Shown here: positions 27,270-35,878 of the stretch, piece by piece
Position numbering within the stretch: the first letter of the stretch is position 1
Layout: each line of letters starts with the position of its first letter
From: a gamma proteobacterium symbiont of Ctena orbiculata
GTDB taxonomy: Bacteria; Pseudomonadota; Gammaproteobacteria; Chromatiales; Chromatiaceae
Length of the DNA: 35,878 bases
Direction of reading: 5' to 3'
NCBI GenBank assembly: GCA_003094535.1
Contig: NATV01000082.1
Coordinates: 1 to 35,878 of the forward strand
The notes under the pieces: generated by a model
The model's database searches: none
What the model was told of the DNA's origin: nothing
Seen by the model: the letters and a program-made list of their open reading frames with translations, nothing else
Position numbers and translations under genes: made by a program

Positions 27270-27827
27270 TTGGCAATCAGAATCAAAAGTCAGTGGCACG
27301 ATGAGGATGCCTCGCGCTCCGCGGAAGAGCTCGGTGGCGCCATTGCGTTCATCGCCTGGCGCATCGCCCTGGACAAGGCCATCACCCTGCATGGCAAACA
27401 CTTTGTCTATGAAAACGACGATCAGCGACTCGCGGTCATTGCCGAATATCTATGCTACGAGGCGCAAATCAGCGACCGCATGATCCATGCCATGGTCGAC
27501 AACGAGGCCCGGGTTGCCATCGTTACCGCACTGGTGATGAAAATGGCCGACCACTTCCAGGACAACGCCGCCGACCTGCTTGGTCCCGGAGATCATGCCA
27601 ACCGGTTCATCACCCTCTATAACCAGCGTTCGGGGGAATACGCCGAATTCAATTTCGACAAGACGGGTCCAAGCTATCCCTTTTTGCGTCACCTCGGTTT
27701 TGAGATCCAGCAGATAATGGGCAGTGAGGAGCACGATAACCGCTGGGTCATCGATCAGGTGATGGATGTGGACGCTCCCGAAGTTTACAAACAACTGGCT
27801 CGCGCGGTCAGAAATCTTTTCGATTAG
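27270..27827 (+). CDS. Conserved-looking protein of unknown function, first of a MoxR/VWA set
   Basis: This 185-residue soluble protein starts at TTG 27270; GAGAGGAG stands seven bases upstream, which decides the start. I do not recognise a domain. Features are a mostly helical N-terminal part (GAIAFIAWRIALDKAITLHG), repeated acidic/amide stretches, and LGFEIQQIMGSEEHDNRWV toward the end. There is no signal peptide, helix anchor or Cys-rich motif. It ends nine bases before the AAA ATPase gene, so the two are almost certainly co-transcribed. That makes it a likely partner or substrate adaptor of the ATPase; this is inference from context only. Confidence 0.85.
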   Translation: MAIRIKSQWHDEDASRSAEELGGAIAFIAWRIALDKAITLHGKHFVYENDDQRLAVIAEYLCYEAQISDRMIHAMVDNEARVAIVTALVMKMADHFQDNAADLLGPGDHANRFITLYNQRSGEYAEFNFDKTGPSYPFLRHLGFEIQQIMGSEEHDNRWVIDQVMDVDAPEVYKQLARAVRNLFD

Positions 27828-27836
27828 GAACTCCCT

Positions 27837-28883
27837 ATGCGCCCCATGCAGCTAATCACCATACTCGAGCAAGAGTTCATCAGTACCCGCGCCGGCCACC
27901 ATACCCCGGTCATGCTCTGGGGGCCACCCGGTGTCGGCAAATCCGACATGGTGCGCGAAGTAGCAAACAACCACCAGGCACCAGTGATCGATATCCGACT
28001 CTCACAGATGGAACCCAGCGACCTGAGAGGTATCCCTTTCCGGGTCAACGGCAGCGTGGAATGGGCGATCCCCTCGATCCTGCCGGATAATCAACGCCAC
28101 GGCGCGGAGGGAATACTCTTTCTCGATGAGATCACATCAGCGCCGCCAACCGTCTCCGCCGCCGCCTACCAGCTGATTCTCGATCGTCGACTGGGTGAAT
28201 ATCAGGTGCCGGAGGGTTGGGCCATATTCGCCGCAGGTAATCGTCAGGGTGACCGGGGCGTAACCTATAGCATGCCGGCACCCCTGGCCAACCGCTTCTC
28301 CCACTTTGAAGTCGACACCAACCTGGATGACTGGGTTGCCTGGGCCTATCGCAATACCATCGATGAGCGGATAATCGCCTTCCTGCGTTTTCGTCCCGAA
28401 CTGCTGTTCGATTTCGACCCGGCGCACAACCCTGTCGCCTTCCCCTCACCCCGGTCCTGGGAGTTCGCCCACCGCGCGCTGCAGAAGTTCGATGGCCATC
28501 CGCAACTCCTGCAGGGTGCGCTGCAGGCCTGCGTCGGGCCCGCCGCGGGCATTGAGTTGAATGCCTTTGTCAACAGCCTCGACAAGATGCCCGACCTGGA
28601 TGCGATCATCGCCGGGGATGAGGTATCGGTACCCGATGAGATCGACCTGCAATATGCTGTCGCAGCCGCACTGGTGGGACGTGCCATACGCGCTCATGAC
28701 GCCGGCGACGGAGAGATCACCCATGGCCGGATCCTCGAGTATGCCCGTCGGTTTCCGCAACGGGAGATGGGGGTGATGCTGGTCTCCGATATGCACCGCG
28801 CCATCGGCGAGGCGATCTTCTCGGTGCCCCAGTTCAGCGATTGGGCTCAGGCCGTGTCGGACGTGATGCTGTATGAATCTTAA
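27837..28883 (+). CDS. MoxR-type AAA+ ATPase
   Basis: This 348-residue ATPase has Walker A GPPGVGKS at 29-36, Walker B ILFLDE at 93-98, and a sensor-1 asparagine in AAGNRQGDRG. DRRLGEYQVPEGW is typical of MoxR/RavA-like members. MoxR ATPases usually pair with a VWA-domain protein to act as chaperones or to insert metal cofactors, and a VWA-like gene follows here. The gene start (ATG 27837) lies nine bases after the preceding gene. Its stop is immediately followed by a small inverted-repeat element. The client is unknown. Confidence 0.9.
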   Translation: MRPMQLITILEQEFISTRAGHHTPVMLWGPPGVGKSDMVREVANNHQAPVIDIRLSQMEPSDLRGIPFRVNGSVEWAIPSILPDNQRHGAEGILFLDEITSAPPTVSAAAYQLILDRRLGEYQVPEGWAIFAAGNRQGDRGVTYSMPAPLANRFSHFEVDTNLDDWVAWAYRNTIDERIIAFLRFRPELLFDFDPAHNPVAFPSPRSWEFAHRALQKFDGHPQLLQGALQACVGPAAGIELNAFVNSLDKMPDLDAIIAGDEVSVPDEIDLQYAVAAALVGRAIRAHDAGDGEITHGRILEYARRFPQREMGVMLVSDMHRAIGEAIFSVPQFSDWAQAVSDVMLYES

Positions 28884-28885
28884 AA

Positions 28886-29058
28886 AGTCCGCAAATGAAT
28901 GCGAATAAAACGCAAATGTTTTCAACTTCGCGATATGAACAATACCCAGGGTGCGGCTTGCCGCACCGTCCAAACGGGTGTTGGTGGCATGCGGTGCGGC
29001 TAGCCGCACCCTACCCCTGCAACAATCATTTGCGTTCATTCGCATTCATTTGCGGACT
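28886..29058. repeat. Inverted-repeat (MITE-like) element with two REP-like hairpins
   Basis: An element of 173 bases is bounded by near-perfect inverted repeats of 32-33 bases (28886-28918 and 29027-29058), each rich in the word CGCAAATG and differing by about two changes. Inside are two copies of a short palindrome: GGTGCGGC-TT-GCCGCACC at 28950-28967 and GGTGCGGC-TA-GCCGCACC at 28993-29010. The whole is roughly symmetrical and contains no gene. It starts three bases after the ATPase stop and ends nine bases before the VWA gene. This form fits a non-autonomous mobile or REP/BIME element. I see no clear target duplication. Confidence 0.85.
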
Positions 29059-29067
29059 CAAACATCA

Positions 29068-30300
29068 ATGACCCAGGAACATATCGAAACCAAGCTGGCG
29101 GCGGCCCGCACCAAGCTGATCCTCGACAAGCCATTCCTCGGTGCCCTGGTGATGCGGCTGCCGATGGAGGCGGCGAATCCCGACTGGTGCCCCGCCACCG
29201 CCACCGATGCGCGCAAGTTCTATTACAACCCTGAGTTCATCGATCAACTGAGCCTCGACGAGACCCAGTTCATGCTCGCCCATGAAGCACTGCATTGCGC
29301 CCTCTCCCATTTCGCCCGGCGTCAGCATCGCAATAAACTCCATTGGGACATGGCCTGCGATTACGCCATCAATCCGCTGCTGATCGAGGATGGCCTGAAA
29401 CCGCCTCCCGGTTCCCTGTTCCTCCCCCAGTTCGAGGGTATGACCGCGGAAGAGATCTACCCCTGTCTGGATGAAAAGAACGATGACGAGCCGTTGGACA
29501 ACCATCTCTACGACCAGGAGAACACCAAGGGATCAGGCAGCGGTACGAGTGAGAAAGATATTTCCAACAACAACGACCAGACCGAAACGGAGAATGAGGG
29601 TGAAGAAAACAGCAACCGGCAGAGCGGCTCCGGATCTGACGCCGATCAACCACCACCTCTCAATCCCGATGAGGCGGAAACACTGAATATTCAATGGCAG
29701 CAGCGTCTGGCGGGCGCCGCGCAACAGGCGATGCAGGTAGGTAAACTTGATGGCGCGATGGCGCGCATGGTGGACCATCTGCTGCAGCCACAGCTCCCCT
29801 GGCGCCTGCTGCTTGCCCGTTATATGACTGCCATCGCCCGGGACGATTTCAGCTATATGCGCCCCTCCAGGCGCGAGGGTGAGCACATACTTCCCAGCCT
29901 GCGCAGCAGTCAGGTAGAATTGGTTGTTGCCCTCGATAGCAGTGGTTCGATACAGGATCATGAAATGGGTGAGTTCCTCTCGGAAATCAATGCCCTGAAG
30001 GGACAGATGCGGGCGCGCATCACCCTGCTTGCCTGTGACTCGGCGATCGCCGAGGAGGCACCCTGGACCTATGAGGCCTGGGAGGATTTCCAGCTACCGG
30101 AAAGAATCACGGGTGGCGGCGGCACCAGTTTCGAACCGGTATTCGAATGGATCTCCGCGCAGGGTATCAGACCCGATCTGTTGGTCTATTTTACCGACGC
30201 GGAGGGCGCCTTTCCCGAGTACGCGCCGCACTATCCGGTCATCTGGCTGGTAAAAGGCAAACAACCTATACCTTGGGGACAGCGCATCCAGCTCAATTAA
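29068..30300 (+). CDS. Zincin-like/VWA-like protein (DUF2201 type)
   Basis: This 410-residue protein pairs two domains. The N-terminal half has HEALH at 72-76 (HExxH), the zinc-binding signature of metallopeptidases, followed by HFARRQHRNKLHWDMACDYAIN. A low-complexity linker rich in Gly, Ser, Asn, Glu and Gln covers about 150-200. The C-terminal half is a VWA-like domain with a MIDAS motif DSSGS at 290-294, the later GGGGTSF, and YFTDAEG. This matches the COG3864/DUF2201 family. It is preceded by a MoxR ATPase, its usual partner type. ATG 29068 fits the family start; the frame runs back to 28951 through the repeat element. Its Shine-Dalgarno is poor. Confidence 0.88.
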   Translation: MTQEHIETKLAAARTKLILDKPFLGALVMRLPMEAANPDWCPATATDARKFYYNPEFIDQLSLDETQFMLAHEALHCALSHFARRQHRNKLHWDMACDYAINPLLIEDGLKPPPGSLFLPQFEGMTAEEIYPCLDEKNDDEPLDNHLYDQENTKGSGSGTSEKDISNNNDQTETENEGEENSNRQSGSGSDADQPPPLNPDEAETLNIQWQQRLAGAAQQAMQVGKLDGAMARMVDHLLQPQLPWRLLLARYMTAIARDDFSYMRPSRREGEHILPSLRSSQVELVVALDSSGSIQDHEMGEFLSEINALKGQMRARITLLACDSAIAEEAPWTYEAWEDFQLPERITGGGGTSFEPVFEWISAQGIRPDLLVYFTDAEGAFPEYAPHYPVIWLVKGKQPIPWGQRIQLN

Positions 30301-30329: not shown

Positions 30330-30905
30330 CTAGAACCGCTTCTTGAGAGTGAAGGCACCCCGTAAATCACCCACTTTGTAACCACGGGCCTTATCAGCGG
30401 GATAGAGCTCATCCAGCTTGGCCGCGACGGGCTCTGCAATCGCATCTCCATGGCACTTGGTACATACCTCTGCCGTGGGGATCGCCTTCATCATGCGGAA
30501 GACCTTGCGACCCTGCTCCTCAACGATTTCGCCCTTGACCAGCTTCATTGGATCCTCTCCCGCCGCCTTGCGCGCCTCGAACTCCTTCAAGACCGTAATT
30601 TCCCAGGCATCAGGGGCATTATTCGGATTGCGCAGCTTCAAGCTGGTCCTGCCCACATCCCAGCCGCTCATCTGAGAATGGGCCTCGGCCAGGCTTGGCG
30701 CCACCTTGTTACAGGTGGCAATGGTGCTCACAGGTCCGCCCGCCTTCATACCCTTGACCAATTCTCCTTTGAGATCGCCAAAGAAGGCCTTAATTACCCC
30801 TTTTCCCTCTTCGAGATTGGCCTGCAGGGACTGATCGGCCTGTACGGTTCCCGCCAGTGAAACCGTGGTCGCTAGGACTATCGCGTTTACGTTTTTATAC
30901 ATCAT
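30330..30905 (-). CDS. Periplasmic c-type haem protein, Tll0287-like (DUF3365)
   Basis: This 191-residue protein has a signal peptide (MMYKNVNAIVLATTVSLAG, cleaved near VQA-DQ) and one haem c site, CTKCH at 148-152. The surrounding GWDVGRTSLKLRNPNNAPDAWE and the C-terminal DKARGYKVGDLRGAFTLKK match Tll0287-like haem domains, a redox or gas-sensing type also found as the sensor part of larger proteins. Here it stands alone. ATG 30905 is chosen since GGAG lies six bases upstream. The gene converges with the VWA gene (29 bases apart) and diverges from bepA. Confidence 0.88.
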   Translation of the reverse strand: MMYKNVNAIVLATTVSLAGTVQADQSLQANLEEGKGVIKAFFGDLKGELVKGMKAGGPVSTIATCNKVAPSLAEAHSQMSGWDVGRTSLKLRNPNNAPDAWEITVLKEFEARKAAGEDPMKLVKGEIVEEQGRKVFRMMKAIPTAEVCTKCHGDAIAEPVAAKLDELYPADKARGYKVGDLRGAFTLKKRF

Positions 30906-31270
30906 ATGAATCTCCACTATTACTCAAAGGTCAACCGGACCGACTCTGTCCGATTGTCAAAATACCGGTTAAGCGTATACAAATTGATCACAACTCAACA
31001 ACCCGATTTTCCGACCCCACTCGCATTCCGGGGTTCCCAATCATCAACAGCAGGGACACTGGCAGCAGCGCGGACACGGTATGCAACTGTCTTACCCAAT
31101 TCCCGCTATTCGGGGTCCTGGAAGCTGACAAACAGGGAAATACCATGTGAAGATGGAAAATCTCCTTGGTGTATTCGATATAATTATGGTATTAGGCAGA
31201 TGTACGGCTGCTACCGCGCATCACTAAATTCTGAGGAACTATCCGTATTCGCCGGGTATCAGTTAAAGGC
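30906..31270. other. Divergent intergenic region between the haem protein and bepA
   Basis: I see no supported gene in this 365-base region. A perfect TATAAT at 31179-31184 on the plus strand, about 87 bases before bepA, could be its -10 element, but the -35 position (about GAAAAT) is poor. The other divergent promoter could not be located. Confidence 0.4.
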
Positions 31271-32755
31271 ATGATCAGAAGAGTTCTGAAGAAACTGTCC
31301 ATTTGTCTCCTGTTAGCCAGCCTGATGGTGATGGCGAGCGCCCATTCGCAAGAGGGTGATTCCATCCAACTGCCGGAACTCGGCTCTCCATCGGATCAAT
31401 ATCTGACTCCGCGGGATGAAGCCCGGTTTGGCAGGGAATTCATGCGCAGTGTCCGTAAAACGGGAAAAGTGCTGGATGATCCCCAGATCACAGAATATAT
31501 CCAACAGCTGGGGGAGAAGCTGCTGAAGCAGAGTGATGCGGTTGGACAGAAGTTCACCTTTTTTGTCGTCGATCAACCTGAAATCAATGCCTTTGCCGGT
31601 CCAGGCGGCTACATCGGCATCTATAGCGGTTTGATCCTGGCGACGCAGAGTGAGAGCGAACTGGCCTCCGTGATTGCCCACGAGATCGCCCACGTCACGC
31701 AAAAACACCTGCTGCGCGCATTTGATGCCGCCAACCGCATGAGCGGCAAGACTGCTGCCCTGTTGCTGGCTTCCATACTGGTGGGCGTTGCCGGTTCGCC
31801 GGATGCCGGCCTCGCCATGGCCACGGGTGTCCAGGCCAGCACCATTCAAGAGCAGATCAACTTCACTCGCAGCAACGAAGAAGAGGCCGATACCGTCGGT
31901 ATTCAGATACTTGCGAAATCCGATTTCGATCCCCGCGCGATGCCGGTCTTTTTTGAGCGCATGACCCACGCCAGCCGACTCTACGAATCGGGTATACCGG
32001 AAATTCTCCGCACCCATCCAGTCACCACTAATCGTATTGCTGACGCCCTGGGGCGCGCGGAGAAATACAGCTATCGCCAGTTTCCGGGCAACCTGAGCTA
32101 CCACCTGACCCGCGAGGCCTTGCGAGTAAGACAGTTCAAAGATCCCAGCAAGGCAGTCACCCACTTTGCCACTGGGCTTGACGAAGGGCGTCATCTCAAC
32201 AAGGAAGCCCACATCTATGGCCACGCCCTTGCCCTGACCACCAATCGCCAATTCGACAAAGCAGAAGAGATCGTTGAAGCGTTGCTGCGAAACAACCCGA
32301 ATCAGATCGAGTATATCCTCGCCGCGGTAGAGATAGCGGGGAAAAAGGGAAATAATGAGAAAGTGCTCAAGATACTTGATACCTACTACAGCTTGATGCC
32401 GGAGAACTATCCCCTGGCAACCGCCTACATCGAAGCACTCACGGCGGCCAACAGACTCGGAAAAGCCCGTGAAATCACCCAACAATCAATCACTTTACGT
32501 AATAACGAACCGCGGCTCTATCGCCTGTTAAGCAAAATCGAGGAACTGGACAACAACCAGGCGGAATCACACCGCATGTTGGCCGAAGCCTTTGTCGCCA
32601 ATGGCGAACTCGAACCTGCCGTACAACAGCTGGAGATTGCCTTAAATAATGTGAACCAGCCGGACTTCTACCTAACCTCCCGGATCGAGTCGCGCTTAAA
32701 CAAGCTGCGTGATCTTCTAAAAGCTGAACAGATGGATGATAAAAAAAATAACTAG
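31271..32755 (+). CDS. bepA: BepA-like M48 metalloprotease with TPR repeats
   Basis: This 494-residue periplasmic protein has a signal peptide (RRVLKKLSICLLLASLMVMASA), an M48 protease domain with HEIAH at 137-141 and the downstream NEEEADTVG glutamate, and a C-terminal half of tetratricopeptide-like helices (about 285-480). BepA helps fold LptD and degrades stalled outer-membrane proteins at the BAM complex. Length and domain order match. ATG 31271 is preceded by a weak AAAGG. No terminator is obvious after it. Confidence 0.93.
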   Translation: MIRRVLKKLSICLLLASLMVMASAHSQEGDSIQLPELGSPSDQYLTPRDEARFGREFMRSVRKTGKVLDDPQITEYIQQLGEKLLKQSDAVGQKFTFFVVDQPEINAFAGPGGYIGIYSGLILATQSESELASVIAHEIAHVTQKHLLRAFDAANRMSGKTAALLLASILVGVAGSPDAGLAMATGVQASTIQEQINFTRSNEEEADTVGIQILAKSDFDPRAMPVFFERMTHASRLYESGIPEILRTHPVTTNRIADALGRAEKYSYRQFPGNLSYHLTREALRVRQFKDPSKAVTHFATGLDEGRHLNKEAHIYGHALALTTNRQFDKAEEIVEALLRNNPNQIEYILAAVEIAGKKGNNEKVLKILDTYYSLMPENYPLATAYIEALTAANRLGKAREITQQSITLRNNEPRLYRLLSKIEELDNNQAESHRMLAEAFVANGELEPAVQQLEIALNNVNQPDFYLTSRIESRLNKLRDLLKAEQMDDKKNN

Positions 32756-33450: not shown

Positions 33451-33927
33451 ATGAGCACTGAAATAAAACGCAGGATCTTCCTCAAAAGATCGCTTGCAGC
33501 AGGCACTGTAGGCATTGCTGCCGCCGCCGGTTTACTGGCACCTCAAAGGGTACTCGCTGCCTGGAACAAAGAAGCATTCGAAGCAAAAGAGCTCCCTGCG
33601 GCACTCAATGCATTGTTGGGTAGCTCCGATGTGGCAGAGTCCGCCGACATAACCGTAAAGGCACCCGATATCGCAGAAAACGGCGCCGTAGTTCCGGTTA
33701 CCGTGGACACAGGAATGGAAGGCGTAGAATCGATTTCCATCATTGCATCGAACAATCCCGTACCTTTGGTAGCTAACTTTGTTATGGGTACCGGCGCCAG
33801 CGGTTTTGTCTCCACCCGTATAAAAATGGGTAAGACCGGCGATGTCGTCGGCATAGTCAAGGCCGGTGGCAAACTCCACAGCGCAAAAAAAGAAGTTAAA
33901 GTCACCATAGGTGGTTGCGGCGGTTGA
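33451..33927 (+). CDS. soxY: Thiosulfate-oxidation carrier protein SoxY
   Basis: This 158-residue protein carries sulfur intermediates on its C-terminal cysteine; the conserved GGCGG end is intact. The N-terminus has a Tat signal (KRRIFLKRSLAAGTVGIAAAAG) with a likely cleavage after VLA or AA near residue 36, so it is exported folded with SoxZ. The start ATG 33451 is preceded by GGAG seven bases upstream. soxZ follows 45 bases later. No soxA, X, B or CD gene is nearby, as in many sulfur-oxidising gammaproteobacteria where sox genes are scattered. Confidence 0.97.
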   Translation: MSTEIKRRIFLKRSLAAGTVGIAAAAGLLAPQRVLAAWNKEAFEAKELPAALNALLGSSDVAESADITVKAPDIAENGAVVPVTVDTGMEGVESISIIASNNPVPLVANFVMGTGASGFVSTRIKMGKTGDVVGIVKAGGKLHSAKKEVKVTIGGCGG

Positions 33928-34410: not shown

Positions 34411-35628
34411 CTATTCCTGCTTTTTGCTGTTTTCAGCATCCTCTTCGAGCAATTTCGCCCACTCCTCTTCCAGCGATCCCGCCTCAAATTCGGAGCTATC
34501 CACCAGTGTTCCATCCTCGTCAGGAATCTCGATATCGATCTTCTCAAGATCATCGACCATGGATTCACTGGCTCGTTTCCCCGTATCTAGATCTGTTTCT
34601 GGATCTGTTTCTGGATCTGTTTCTGGATCTGTTTCTGGATCTTTTTCTGGATCTGGTTCTGGTTCTGGTTCTGGTTCCTTTTCTGTTTCCACCTGAATAT
34701 CGGACTCTTCAATCATCTCATCGGCCAATTCCATGACCTCATCGATAATCTCCGAAACATCCTCATCCGTTTCTGCCGCATCTTCATCCAAACTGGCATT
34801 CTGCGCGGAGTCAGTCTGATCCGAGACCTCTCCATCTTGGGCGTCACTCTCCTCGAGATAGGAGGATTGCTCTATTTCTTCGGCGCTAAAATCGGGTATC
34901 TCAGTGTCAATCGCTGGCGCAGAAGCCATTATCTCCGTCTGCAGGTCATCCATCATGGAATCCGTTGACTCTGTCGGCTGTGGCGACGATTCCTCTTCGC
35001 CGCTCTCAAGGGCGGATTCCGCGCTCTCTTCAGGAGACTGCTGATCATCACTCGCAGCATCGGTAGCCTGGGTTGCAGCGCCAGGGGCCGACGCCGCACC
35101 ACCGGAAAACATGGTCGAGTACTCATTCAGCATTCTGCCCATGGTGTCCATGGTTACTCGCAGCTCTTCAGATAACCTTTCATTCTCCTCTTTGAGCTTA
35201 GCGATATCCTCGCTATCTTCCGTCACAGAACCCTGATCCGACTTGCCGACGGAGTCGGGCACCCCCAGTCCCTGATAAGAAAGGACCAGGTTTTCCACAT
35301 CAACATCCAGCTGCTGCAGGTGTACCTGGTCATCCTTGACAAAACCGTTTATGACGTTTTGATAGAGTTGCATTTCCGTCTGCATCATGTTGTGCAGGGT
35401 CTGTTCGAGATCACTATCGGCCAGTTTATAATTATCCTGTAAAAGCACTTTCAAGCGCTGTTCACGGTTGGCTTTATCGCTTTGCACCCGCTCAGCCAGA
35501 TGGGCTGCGGCCTTGCGTATTCTCCCTTTACGCATCAGGGTGAAAAAGAGCAGCAGGCCGCTCAGCACCAGCAGGCCGACGAAAACCTCAGCAACAATCA
35601 GCGCTACCAGGGAGCTGACTTCAACCAT
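34411..35628 (-). CDS. Acidic single-helix membrane protein with Asp-Pro/Glu-Pro repeats
   Basis: This protein of about 405 residues starts at ATG 35628 (GAGG three bases upstream), overlapping the preceding gene by eight bases. One N-terminal membrane helix (VALIVAEVFVGLLVLSGLLLFF) is followed by a basic patch, a helical region likely to be coiled coil (LKEENERLSEELRVTMDTMGRM), and a long, very acidic, Ser/Glu/Asp-rich region. Near the C-terminus lies EPEPEPEPDPEKDP and a run of DPET repeats encoded by a 12-base tandem repeat. The C-terminal end is again acidic and helical (EEEWAKLLEEDAEN). The family is not recognised; FimV-like acidic proteins are only superficially similar. Confidence 0.8.
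   Translation of the reverse strand: MVEVSSLVALIVAEVFVGLLVLSGLLLFFTLMRKGRIRKAAAHLAERVQSDKANREQRLKVLLQDNYKLADSDLEQTLHNMMQTEMQLYQNVINGFVKDDQVHLQQLDVDVENLVLSYQGLGVPDSVGKSDQGSVTEDSEDIAKLKEENERLSEELRVTMDTMGRMLNEYSTMFSGGAASAPGAATQATDAASDDQQSPEESAESALESGEEESSPQPTESTDSMMDDLQTEIMASAPAIDTEIPDFSAEEIEQSSYLEESDAQDGEVSDQTDSAQNASLDEDAAETDEDVSEIIDEVMELADEMIEESDIQVETEKEPEPEPEPDPEKDPETDPETDPETDPETDLDTGKRASESMVDDLEKIDIEIPDEDGTLVDSSEFEAGSLEEEWAKLLEEDAENSKKQE
34589..34672. repeat. 12-base tandem repeat coding for DPET units
   Basis: Four units close to GGATCTGTTTCT (34589-34636) are followed by one variant (34637-34648), a partial unit and three GGTTCT units (34655-34672). All are in frame on the minus strand, giving DPET repeats and then Glu-Pro pairs. 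Length change by whole units would not break the gene. Confidence 0.9.
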
Positions 35629-35878
35629 TTTCCTCTGCCTCGTCCTCGTTAGCCTTGGCGGCACTCTCATCCACCAGGCTTACCATTGCGCGTTTGTTGC
35701 GTATAAAGAACCACCAATAAGCAGCTCCGCCGCCGCCAATCAAAAGCAGGTTGATAACTCCAAACCAAATCAGCGCGGAAACCCAACCTCCCTCCTCTTC
35801 ACTCTTAGCTTCCGGCTCAGGTTCAGGCACGACTTCCGGCTGTGGTTCCGGTTCCGGCTGTGGTTCCGGTTCCGGCTG
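35621..35878 (-). CDS. C-terminal part of a Pro-Glu-rich membrane protein (truncated by window)
   Basis: The frame is open to the right edge, so the start lies outside the window. The visible 85 residues begin with alternating QPEPEP units, run through PEVVPEPEPEAKSEEEGGW, then a single hydrophobic helix (ALIWFGVINLLLIGGGGAAYWWFF) followed by RNKRAMVSLVDESAAKANEDEAEENG. This is a periplasmic Pro-Glu stalk, an anchor and a short acidic cytoplasmic tail, if the positive-inside rule applies. It overlaps the next gene by eight bases. The family is not identified from this fragment. Confidence 0.8.
   Translation of the reverse strand, partial: QPEPEPQPEPEPQPEVVPEPEPEAKSEEEGGWVSALIWFGVINLLLIGGGGAAYWWFFIRNKRAMVSLVDESAAKANEDEAEENG

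Follow-up and report, generated by a model that had tools for sequence, protein, structure and literature searches.

The stretch of DNA considered here, a 35,878-nucleotide contig (NATV01000082.1 of assembly GCA_003094535.1; hereafter the window, contig C82 in our numbering) from a gammaproteobacterial symbiont of the clam Ctena orbiculata, encodes three consecutive genes, termed here U, M and V, which specify respectively a protein of no recognizable family, a MoxR-type AAA+ ATPase and a protein uniting a zincin-like domain with a von Willebrand factor type A (VWA)-like domain. From the genes present, their conservation, the genomes that they share with dsrA and dsrS, and their operon positions we propose that they probably, though far from certainly, constitute an accessory maturation or remodeling machine of the gammaproteobacterial sulfur-oxidizing (reverse) dissimilatory sulfite reductase (Dsr) pathway. 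The link of M-V to this pathway is well supported; the assembly, mechanism and client of the machine are what we infer from these lines of evidence. The three open reading frames (ORFs) lie where a preceding sequence-only reading of the window had placed them, and the relevant features are the following:

27270..27827, forward strand: gene U, 185-aa product without family match, all helices by prediction, distribution following dsrA in Gammaproteobacteria
27837..28883, forward strand: gene M, MoxR-type AAA+ ATPase, 348 aa, ATG start
27921..27944, forward strand: Walker A of M, GPPGVGKS (residue conservation)
28116..28130, forward strand: Walker B of M, LFLDE (residue conservation)
28886..29058, no strand assigned: repeat element filling the M-V spacer, 24-nt inverted repeats at its ends, outside the machine
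29068..30300, forward strand: gene V, DUF2201_N (zincin-like) plus DUF2201 VWA-like domains, 410 aa
29281..29295, forward strand: HEALH motif, V residues 72-76 (alignment)
29359..29361, forward strand: V D98, candidate third zinc ligand, replaced by E only where His72 is lost
29935..29949, forward strand: metal-ion-dependent adhesion site (MIDAS) DSSGS, V residues 290-294 (alignment)
30124-30126, forward strand: V T353, MIDAS-type (alignment)
30196-30198, forward strand: V D377, MIDAS-type (alignment)
30274..30297, forward strand: V C-terminus WGQRIQLN, candidate M-docking tail (conservation; analogy to NorD)

Distribution and genomic linkage of U, M and V with dsr genes

The window holds no visible client gene for M-V (the sequence-only reading had remarked that no methanol dehydrogenase, RuBisCO or denitrification client is adjacent), and the likely client pathway is found elsewhere in the same genome (4.29 Mb in 182 contigs), where the dsr genes lie on contigs C107 and C53. 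Because of this lack, and because the neighborhoods of U in other genomes contain dsrA, together with DsrC-like genes and a divergently oriented gene for an Sfum_1244-type protein, we profiled the genes across 229 gammaproteobacterial genomes, the window's own included. Relatives of U are present in 74 of these, which makes the ORF more than a chance observation; its common neighbors are the dsr cluster and the divergently oriented Sfum_1244 gene. The dsrA set comprises 78 genomes, 73 over the TIGR02064 cut-off and five with fragmentary copies (G033, G079, G187, G208 and G219). V matched in 70 genomes, of which 66 with close relatives were retained for the counts, the four weak matches left out (G076, G106, G108 and G146) being 30-39% identical. 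U and dsrA occur together in 70 genomes, with U alone in four and dsrA alone in eight (phi 0.88), and V and dsrA in 62, with V alone in four and dsrA alone in 16 (phi 0.80). V shows its tightest association with a gene that we term DsrS, present in 68 genomes: both are found in 64, V alone in two and DsrS alone in four (phi 0.94). U and V themselves share 60 genomes (phi 0.80), a figure unchanged when all 70 V matches are counted.

The name DsrS was given by position, since no family model names the gene: two of the proteins (L063:2448-3563 on the reverse and L228:14891-15997 on the forward strand) had no match in NCBIfam, and one of these had none in Pfam. It lies immediately after dsrR in G000, G015, G117 and G088, which is the place of dsrS in the order dsrN-dsrR-dsrS given for Allochromatium vinosum (PMC10892978). 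The window genome itself has the order dsrA-B-E-F-H-C-M-K-L-J-O-P-N-R-D on C107, with D being this gene; dsrB, E, H, M, O, P and N had fitting NCBIfam matches (those of dsrM and dsrP below cut-off, that of dsrN of the CobB type), while dsrF, C, K, L, J and R were named by their place in the gene order dsrABEFHCMKLJOPNR as set out in PMC5024460.

Operon organization in other genomes brings M-V still closer to this cluster. In two genomes of one genus (G042 and G183) the order is dsrABEFHCMKLJOPNR-M-V-dsrS, placing M-V inside the dsr operon; in G087 M-V-dsrS lies directly upstream of dsrA; and G124 and G137 have U, then M, V and dsrS in succession on the stretch that bears dsr, U being separated from M by other genes. 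Where dsr clusters adjoin U, they contain dsrE, dsrF and dsrH, and often dsrL, genes tied to sulfur oxidation in the account of Dsr evolution in PMC11406059. In 64 of the 66 V genomes V is preceded by M on the same strand, and in 43 of those the two genes are no more than 25 nt apart. As M-V relatives co-occur with, and sometimes sit within, sulfur-oxidation genes, the client of M-V is probably to be sought in the Dsr pathway.

The position of U is looser. It shares a contig with dsrA in 34 of 69 genomes and lies less than 20 kb from it in 30, positions being available for 69 of the 70 genomes with both (for G219 a weak match, probably dsrB, was used). U and V are less than 3 kb apart in only four of the 60 genomes with both and on different contigs in 39, and M is beside or near U in 26 of 80 named loci, many of which end at contig ends. 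Hence, while U does co-occur with V (60 of the 74 U genomes), U as an obligate adjacent partner of M-V was rejected as a rule. The "tight order" claimed for the trio likewise applies to U and M, separated by 9 nt, and not to M and V, which are 184 nt apart. This spacer is filled by an approximately 173-bp repeated element with 89 BLAST matches in its own genome, itself included, mostly just 30-40 nt long (i.e. partial copies). In related Thiodiazotropha loci M and V either almost adjoin (L124, L127) or are separated by spacers whose ends are alike and whose cores differ.

Downstream of the trio the window encodes a BepA-like M48 protease (31271-32755, forward strand) and SoxY (33451-33927, forward strand), and the order V, bepA-like gene, soxY recurs in G088 and G015. 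This arrangement would favor the Sox thiosulfate-oxidizing system as the client, which we nevertheless consider highly improbable, because a soxY control shows that U and V follow dsrA. Of the 95 genomes with soxY over the cut-off, 30 lack dsrA, and of these two have U and one has V; by comparison, among 13 genomes with dsrA and no soxY, U is found in nine and V in eight. The phi values of soxY (0.61 with U and 0.54 with V) are correspondingly below those of dsrA. Also downstream are a Tll0287-like protein (30330-30917, reverse strand) and a 419-aa ORF (34411-35670, reverse strand) with weak family matches, all below curated cut-offs.

Several observations weigh against assigning the trio to the Dsr pathway. 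V is missing from 16 and U from eight of the 78 dsrA genomes, indicating that neither is essential to Dsr. Conversely, U occurs without dsrA in G067, G093, G127 and G186, and V in G067, G127, G178 and G186. These exceptions are in part incomplete genomes (G186 81%, G178 72%), and G093 has a congener with dsrA; G127 (listed as 100% complete) and G067 (95%, in about 500 contigs) are not accounted for in this way. G127 carries U, M, V, DsrS and the Sfum_1244 gene with no dsrA over the cut-off, and since the contig holding its U stops some 4.5 kb past the Sfum_1244 gene, there may be a gap in the assembly. In G032 and G116 the 7-8 kb surrounding V contained no M. In a second survey of 299 genomes across the phylum, 48 dsrA genomes outside the class were without U, the direction of Dsr not being distinguished there, whereas the four U genomes were all gammaproteobacterial and had dsrA, with U less than 4 kb from it in the three other than the window's own; U therefore marks gammaproteobacterial Dsr rather than Dsr generally. 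Moreover, the co-distribution figures ignore kinship among the genomes, and the assemblies are incomplete. Finally, the trio of the window genome is on a different contig from dsr and dsrS, and M-V relatives occur in phages and plasmids, V relatives being present in 627 of 50,697 phage and 84 of 72,556 plasmid records (scans of viral contigs with V queries yielded one locus in all).

Together with the dsrA genomes that lack V, these last two points would suit a mobile general-purpose module that settled near dsr and was co-inherited without acting on the pathway. We hold this to be clearly unlikely: V and DsrS keep their phi of 0.94 although, of the 64 genomes with both, 34 have them less than 3 kb apart, five on one contig at more than 3 kb (four of them more than 160 kb), and 25 on different contigs, at distances that the assemblies do not give. 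M-V is also found between dsrR and dsrS inside the dsr operon, and M is at least 71% identical to the window copy in 16 aligned relatives.

Gene U and its neighborhoods

The U gene begins with a TTG at 27270, preceded by GAGAGGAGAT, and its relatives keep an N-terminal MAxRIKSxW. The closest named records by U are from lucinid-clam symbionts, namely Candidatus Thiodiazotropha endolucinida at 88% and, at 98%, a symbiont of Ctena orbiculata. The sequence-only reading had left the 185-residue product unrecognized, and so it remains in Pfam (E <= 0.1), NCBIfam, PHROGs and PADLOC at the thresholds used. The predicted fold consists of six helices, modeled with high confidence (mean predicted local distance difference test score, pLDDT, 90.1; predicted template modeling score, pTM, 0.86), with no PDB match at E <= 0.001. 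A phage or plasmid origin of U was dropped, there being no match in phage or plasmid records at E <= 0.01.

Two kinds of neighbor deserve mention in their own right. The first is the Sfum_1244/DUF6866 protein (e.g. L061:8019-9071, forward strand), usually encoded divergently from U, whose 53 genomes all have U. The second is a Cas6/Cmx6-like protein (L032:1876-2580 and 14 other loci) encoded near U in 15 of 41 loci, the one member tested matching PF09559 with E 1.4e-60. Thirteen of these 15 loci also encode a DsrC paralog ending in an RKGGY form and mostly free of cysteine. A crude repeat scan of the 15 loci revealed no CRISPR-like arrays, with L235 flagged and not inspected; an apparent array in L047 was rejected as an 81-nt tandem repeat.

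Active-site conservation and proposed mechanism of M-V

M matches the AAA_5 profile (E 3.2e-10), with MoxR-type models scoring more weakly, and the intact Walker motifs attributed to it by the sequence-only reading proved to be conserved without exception: G29, G32, G34, K35, S36, D97, E98, N135, R153 and R206 are invariant in 64 aligned rows, in which the window copy was entered twice. Taking N135, R153 and R206 to have, presumably, the sensor and arginine-finger roles, M displays the entire AAA+ core of Walker A, Walker B, sensor 1 Asn, Arg finger and sensor 2. Compared with the best 20 of 47 AAA_5 places in its own genome, its own place aside, which were not identified as CbbQ or NorQ, it is 26-35% identical over 88-147 aa. 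Among PADLOC defense models there were weak AAA matches to M alone and none to U or V, and a reading of the trio as a defense system was rejected on this ground.

For V the sequence-only reading had chosen a GTG start at 28951 (449 aa). That codon falls inside the repeat element, and the start conserved among relatives is the ATG at 29068, giving 410 aa. Both Pfam domains are well above gathering, namely DUF2201_N, labeled "putative metallopeptidase" (E 2.2e-45, 155.8 bits against 23.2), and DUF2201 (E 2.1e-25, 89.6 bits against 26.4), bearing out the assignment to the DUF2201-type MoxR/VWA pairs; the HEALH and DSSGS motifs reported earlier are both present. Over the proteins from the 66 genomes, the MIDAS residues D290, S292 and S294 are retained in all 65 readable rows, T353 in 63 of 64 and D377 in 64 of 64. 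A variant of WGQRIQLN ends the protein in at least 54 of the 66 rows. As NorD deprived of its last two residues no longer co-purifies with NorQ in the work described in PMC13036017, it is a reasonable inference by analogy that this tail docks on the M ring. The predicted structure of V is poor overall (mean pLDDT 69.7, pTM 0.49), and therefore domain-level matches alone were used: these recovered VWA domains (best E 7.7e-4, probability 1.0), a chain of the NorQD complex (9qhe_G, one weak match, probability 0.47, E 0.10) and the selecase of M. jannaschii (weak fold matches, probability 0.84-0.95, E 0.057-0.15), the last paralleled by a weak profile match of residues 45-80 (E 0.089).

The zinc site is less uniform. 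HExxH is intact in 60 of the 66 genomes; E73 is Asp (HDxxH) in G042, G183 and G219, and Gln together with loss of His72 in G044, G185 and G019, G042/G183 and G044/G185 each being congeneric pairs. As D98 is changed to Glu in exactly the latter three genomes and in no other row, the alignment makes it the leading candidate for a third metal ligand, although the paired changes may represent just one or two events, as G044 and G185 share a genus. A check of the HEALH alignment thus yields a plausible third ligand and an incompletely invariant His72/Glu73 pair. This pattern bears on an alternative in which V is an active zinc metallopeptidase and M supplies or orients the Dsr protein or regulator that is cleaved, i.e. 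a regulated protease rather than a chaperone. The widespread retention of HExxH, also seen in four aligned phage and plasmid relatives, the apparent co-evolution of D98 with His72 as expected of a metal ligand, and the weak selecase-like character of the N-terminal domain all speak for it. On the other side, all six genomes with altered motifs retain the MIDAS, M and DsrS, and G042 and G183, with M-V inside the dsr operon, are among those with HDxxH. The loss of His72 and Glu with the MIDAS kept indicates that some lineages can do without the catalytic site, and we accordingly judge the protease reading rather unlikely. The coupling of remodeling to proteolysis suggested by the sequence-only reading likewise fails as a general claim, the motif being altered or lost in six of the 66 genomes.

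Under the maturation-machine proposal, M would form an AAA+ ring engaged by the VWA half of V as in NorQ/NorD, with the conserved V C-terminus docking on the ring, and the MIDAS face and zincin-like domain of V holding the client. By analogy with the NorQ/NorD mechanism presented in PMC13036017, the ring might turn or pull V while the MIDAS face grips an acidic patch on the client. The zincin-like domain could act as a client-side lever or, where intact, as a trimming peptidase. Such ATP-driven movement of V would open or strip the client, either to allow the insertion of a cofactor or subunit or to reset a complex that has gone dead. DsrS, whose distribution nearly coincides with that of V, is the best candidate for a third component, and would be the likeliest third partner or client adaptor; U would be another Dsr partner, bound less closely to the machine. 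The client itself would most likely be a Dsr metalloprotein, either DsrAB with its siroheme-type cofactor or DsrMKJOP. A more specific version, in which M-V with DsrS inserts or repairs a Dsr cofactor or membrane subunit, the zincin-derived domain mostly remains a client-trimming peptidase and U is a new Dsr protein, is a tentative possibility that we would not expect to hold in full.

Oxidative Dsr is a main route of stored-sulfur oxidation in purple sulfur bacteria, and also in many bacteria that are marine or symbiotic. Should the more specific version be correct, dissimilatory sulfur oxidation would have in M-V its first dedicated maturation machine of the MoxR/VWA kind, DsrS would gain a function, and AAA+ cofactor-insertion chaperones would extend to siroheme-type sulfur enzymes. 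The sharing of V with DsrS (64/66) and of U with dsrA (70/74) makes a role for DsrS directly testable.

Comparison with known MoxR/VWA systems

As a whole, the earlier observation is confirmed and its interpretation partly supported: U co-occurs with V across genomes and the MIDAS and, mostly, HExxH persist among homologs, so that neither of the two outcomes that would have overturned that reading was obtained. The MoxR/VWA type of pair was already known, the Dsr link being what is proposed in addition here. Targeted literature searches, with most subscription papers outside their coverage, found no paper linking MoxR/VWA proteins to Dsr, and the main text of PMC11406059 on Dsr evolution has no mention of MoxR, AAA or DUF. 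The MoxR subfamily names given in PMC3893208 and PMC11432383 include PA2707, YehL, TM0930 and APE2220/CoxD. DsrS, the candidate partner encoded outside the window, is likened to that of the A. vinosum dsr operon by position, and the 2011 genome paper of that organism (PMC3368242) describes the functions of DsrL, DsrR and DsrS as not resolved.

The closest parallels in gene pairing and domains are the gp24/gp25 pair of phage N4 and plasmid pairs of ATP-binding and VWA-like proteins, the N4 proteins being homologous to both M and V over most of their length. N4 gp24, whose start is cut off in the fetched stretch, is 30% identical to M over 329 aa; M is 30-33% identical to gp24 and two plasmid ATPases, and 27% to a Vibrio phage ATPase. 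N4 gp25 is 28% identical to V and has both HExxH and the MIDAS, the identity to V over the phage and plasmid relatives aligned being 28-33%. These pairs differ from the trio in that phage and plasmid records hold no match to U at E <= 0.01. For a Delftia phage, RG-2014, VWFA and DUF2201_N are listed for one protein in PMC5735904. N4 gp25 (L223:1165-2307) is deposited as an HNH endonuclease, a label also borne by 17 of the 20 phage matches listed and by phrog_1314; given its relationship to DUF2201-type V proteins, this name is probably wrong, and the comparison offers a probable identity for gp25. Since M-V relatives occur in phages and plasmids, the class of mechanism is a general one, and the tie to Dsr would be its application in one particular lineage, adding a candidate client pathway for MoxR/VWA chaperones.

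With selecase (MJ1213) V shares a weak profile and fold resemblance of the N-terminal domain around HExxH, the E-values alone not being significant; selecase is a stand-alone protein of about 110 aa, whereas in V the domain is fused to a VWA domain. Finally, M-V resembles NorQ/NorD, CbbQ/CbbO and RavA/ViaA in combining a MoxR AAA+ ATPase with a neighboring protein that has a C-terminal VWA domain, an intact MIDAS and a conserved tail, and V departs from NorD, CbbO and ViaA in its zincin-like N-terminal half and in the tracking of dsr by its genes.

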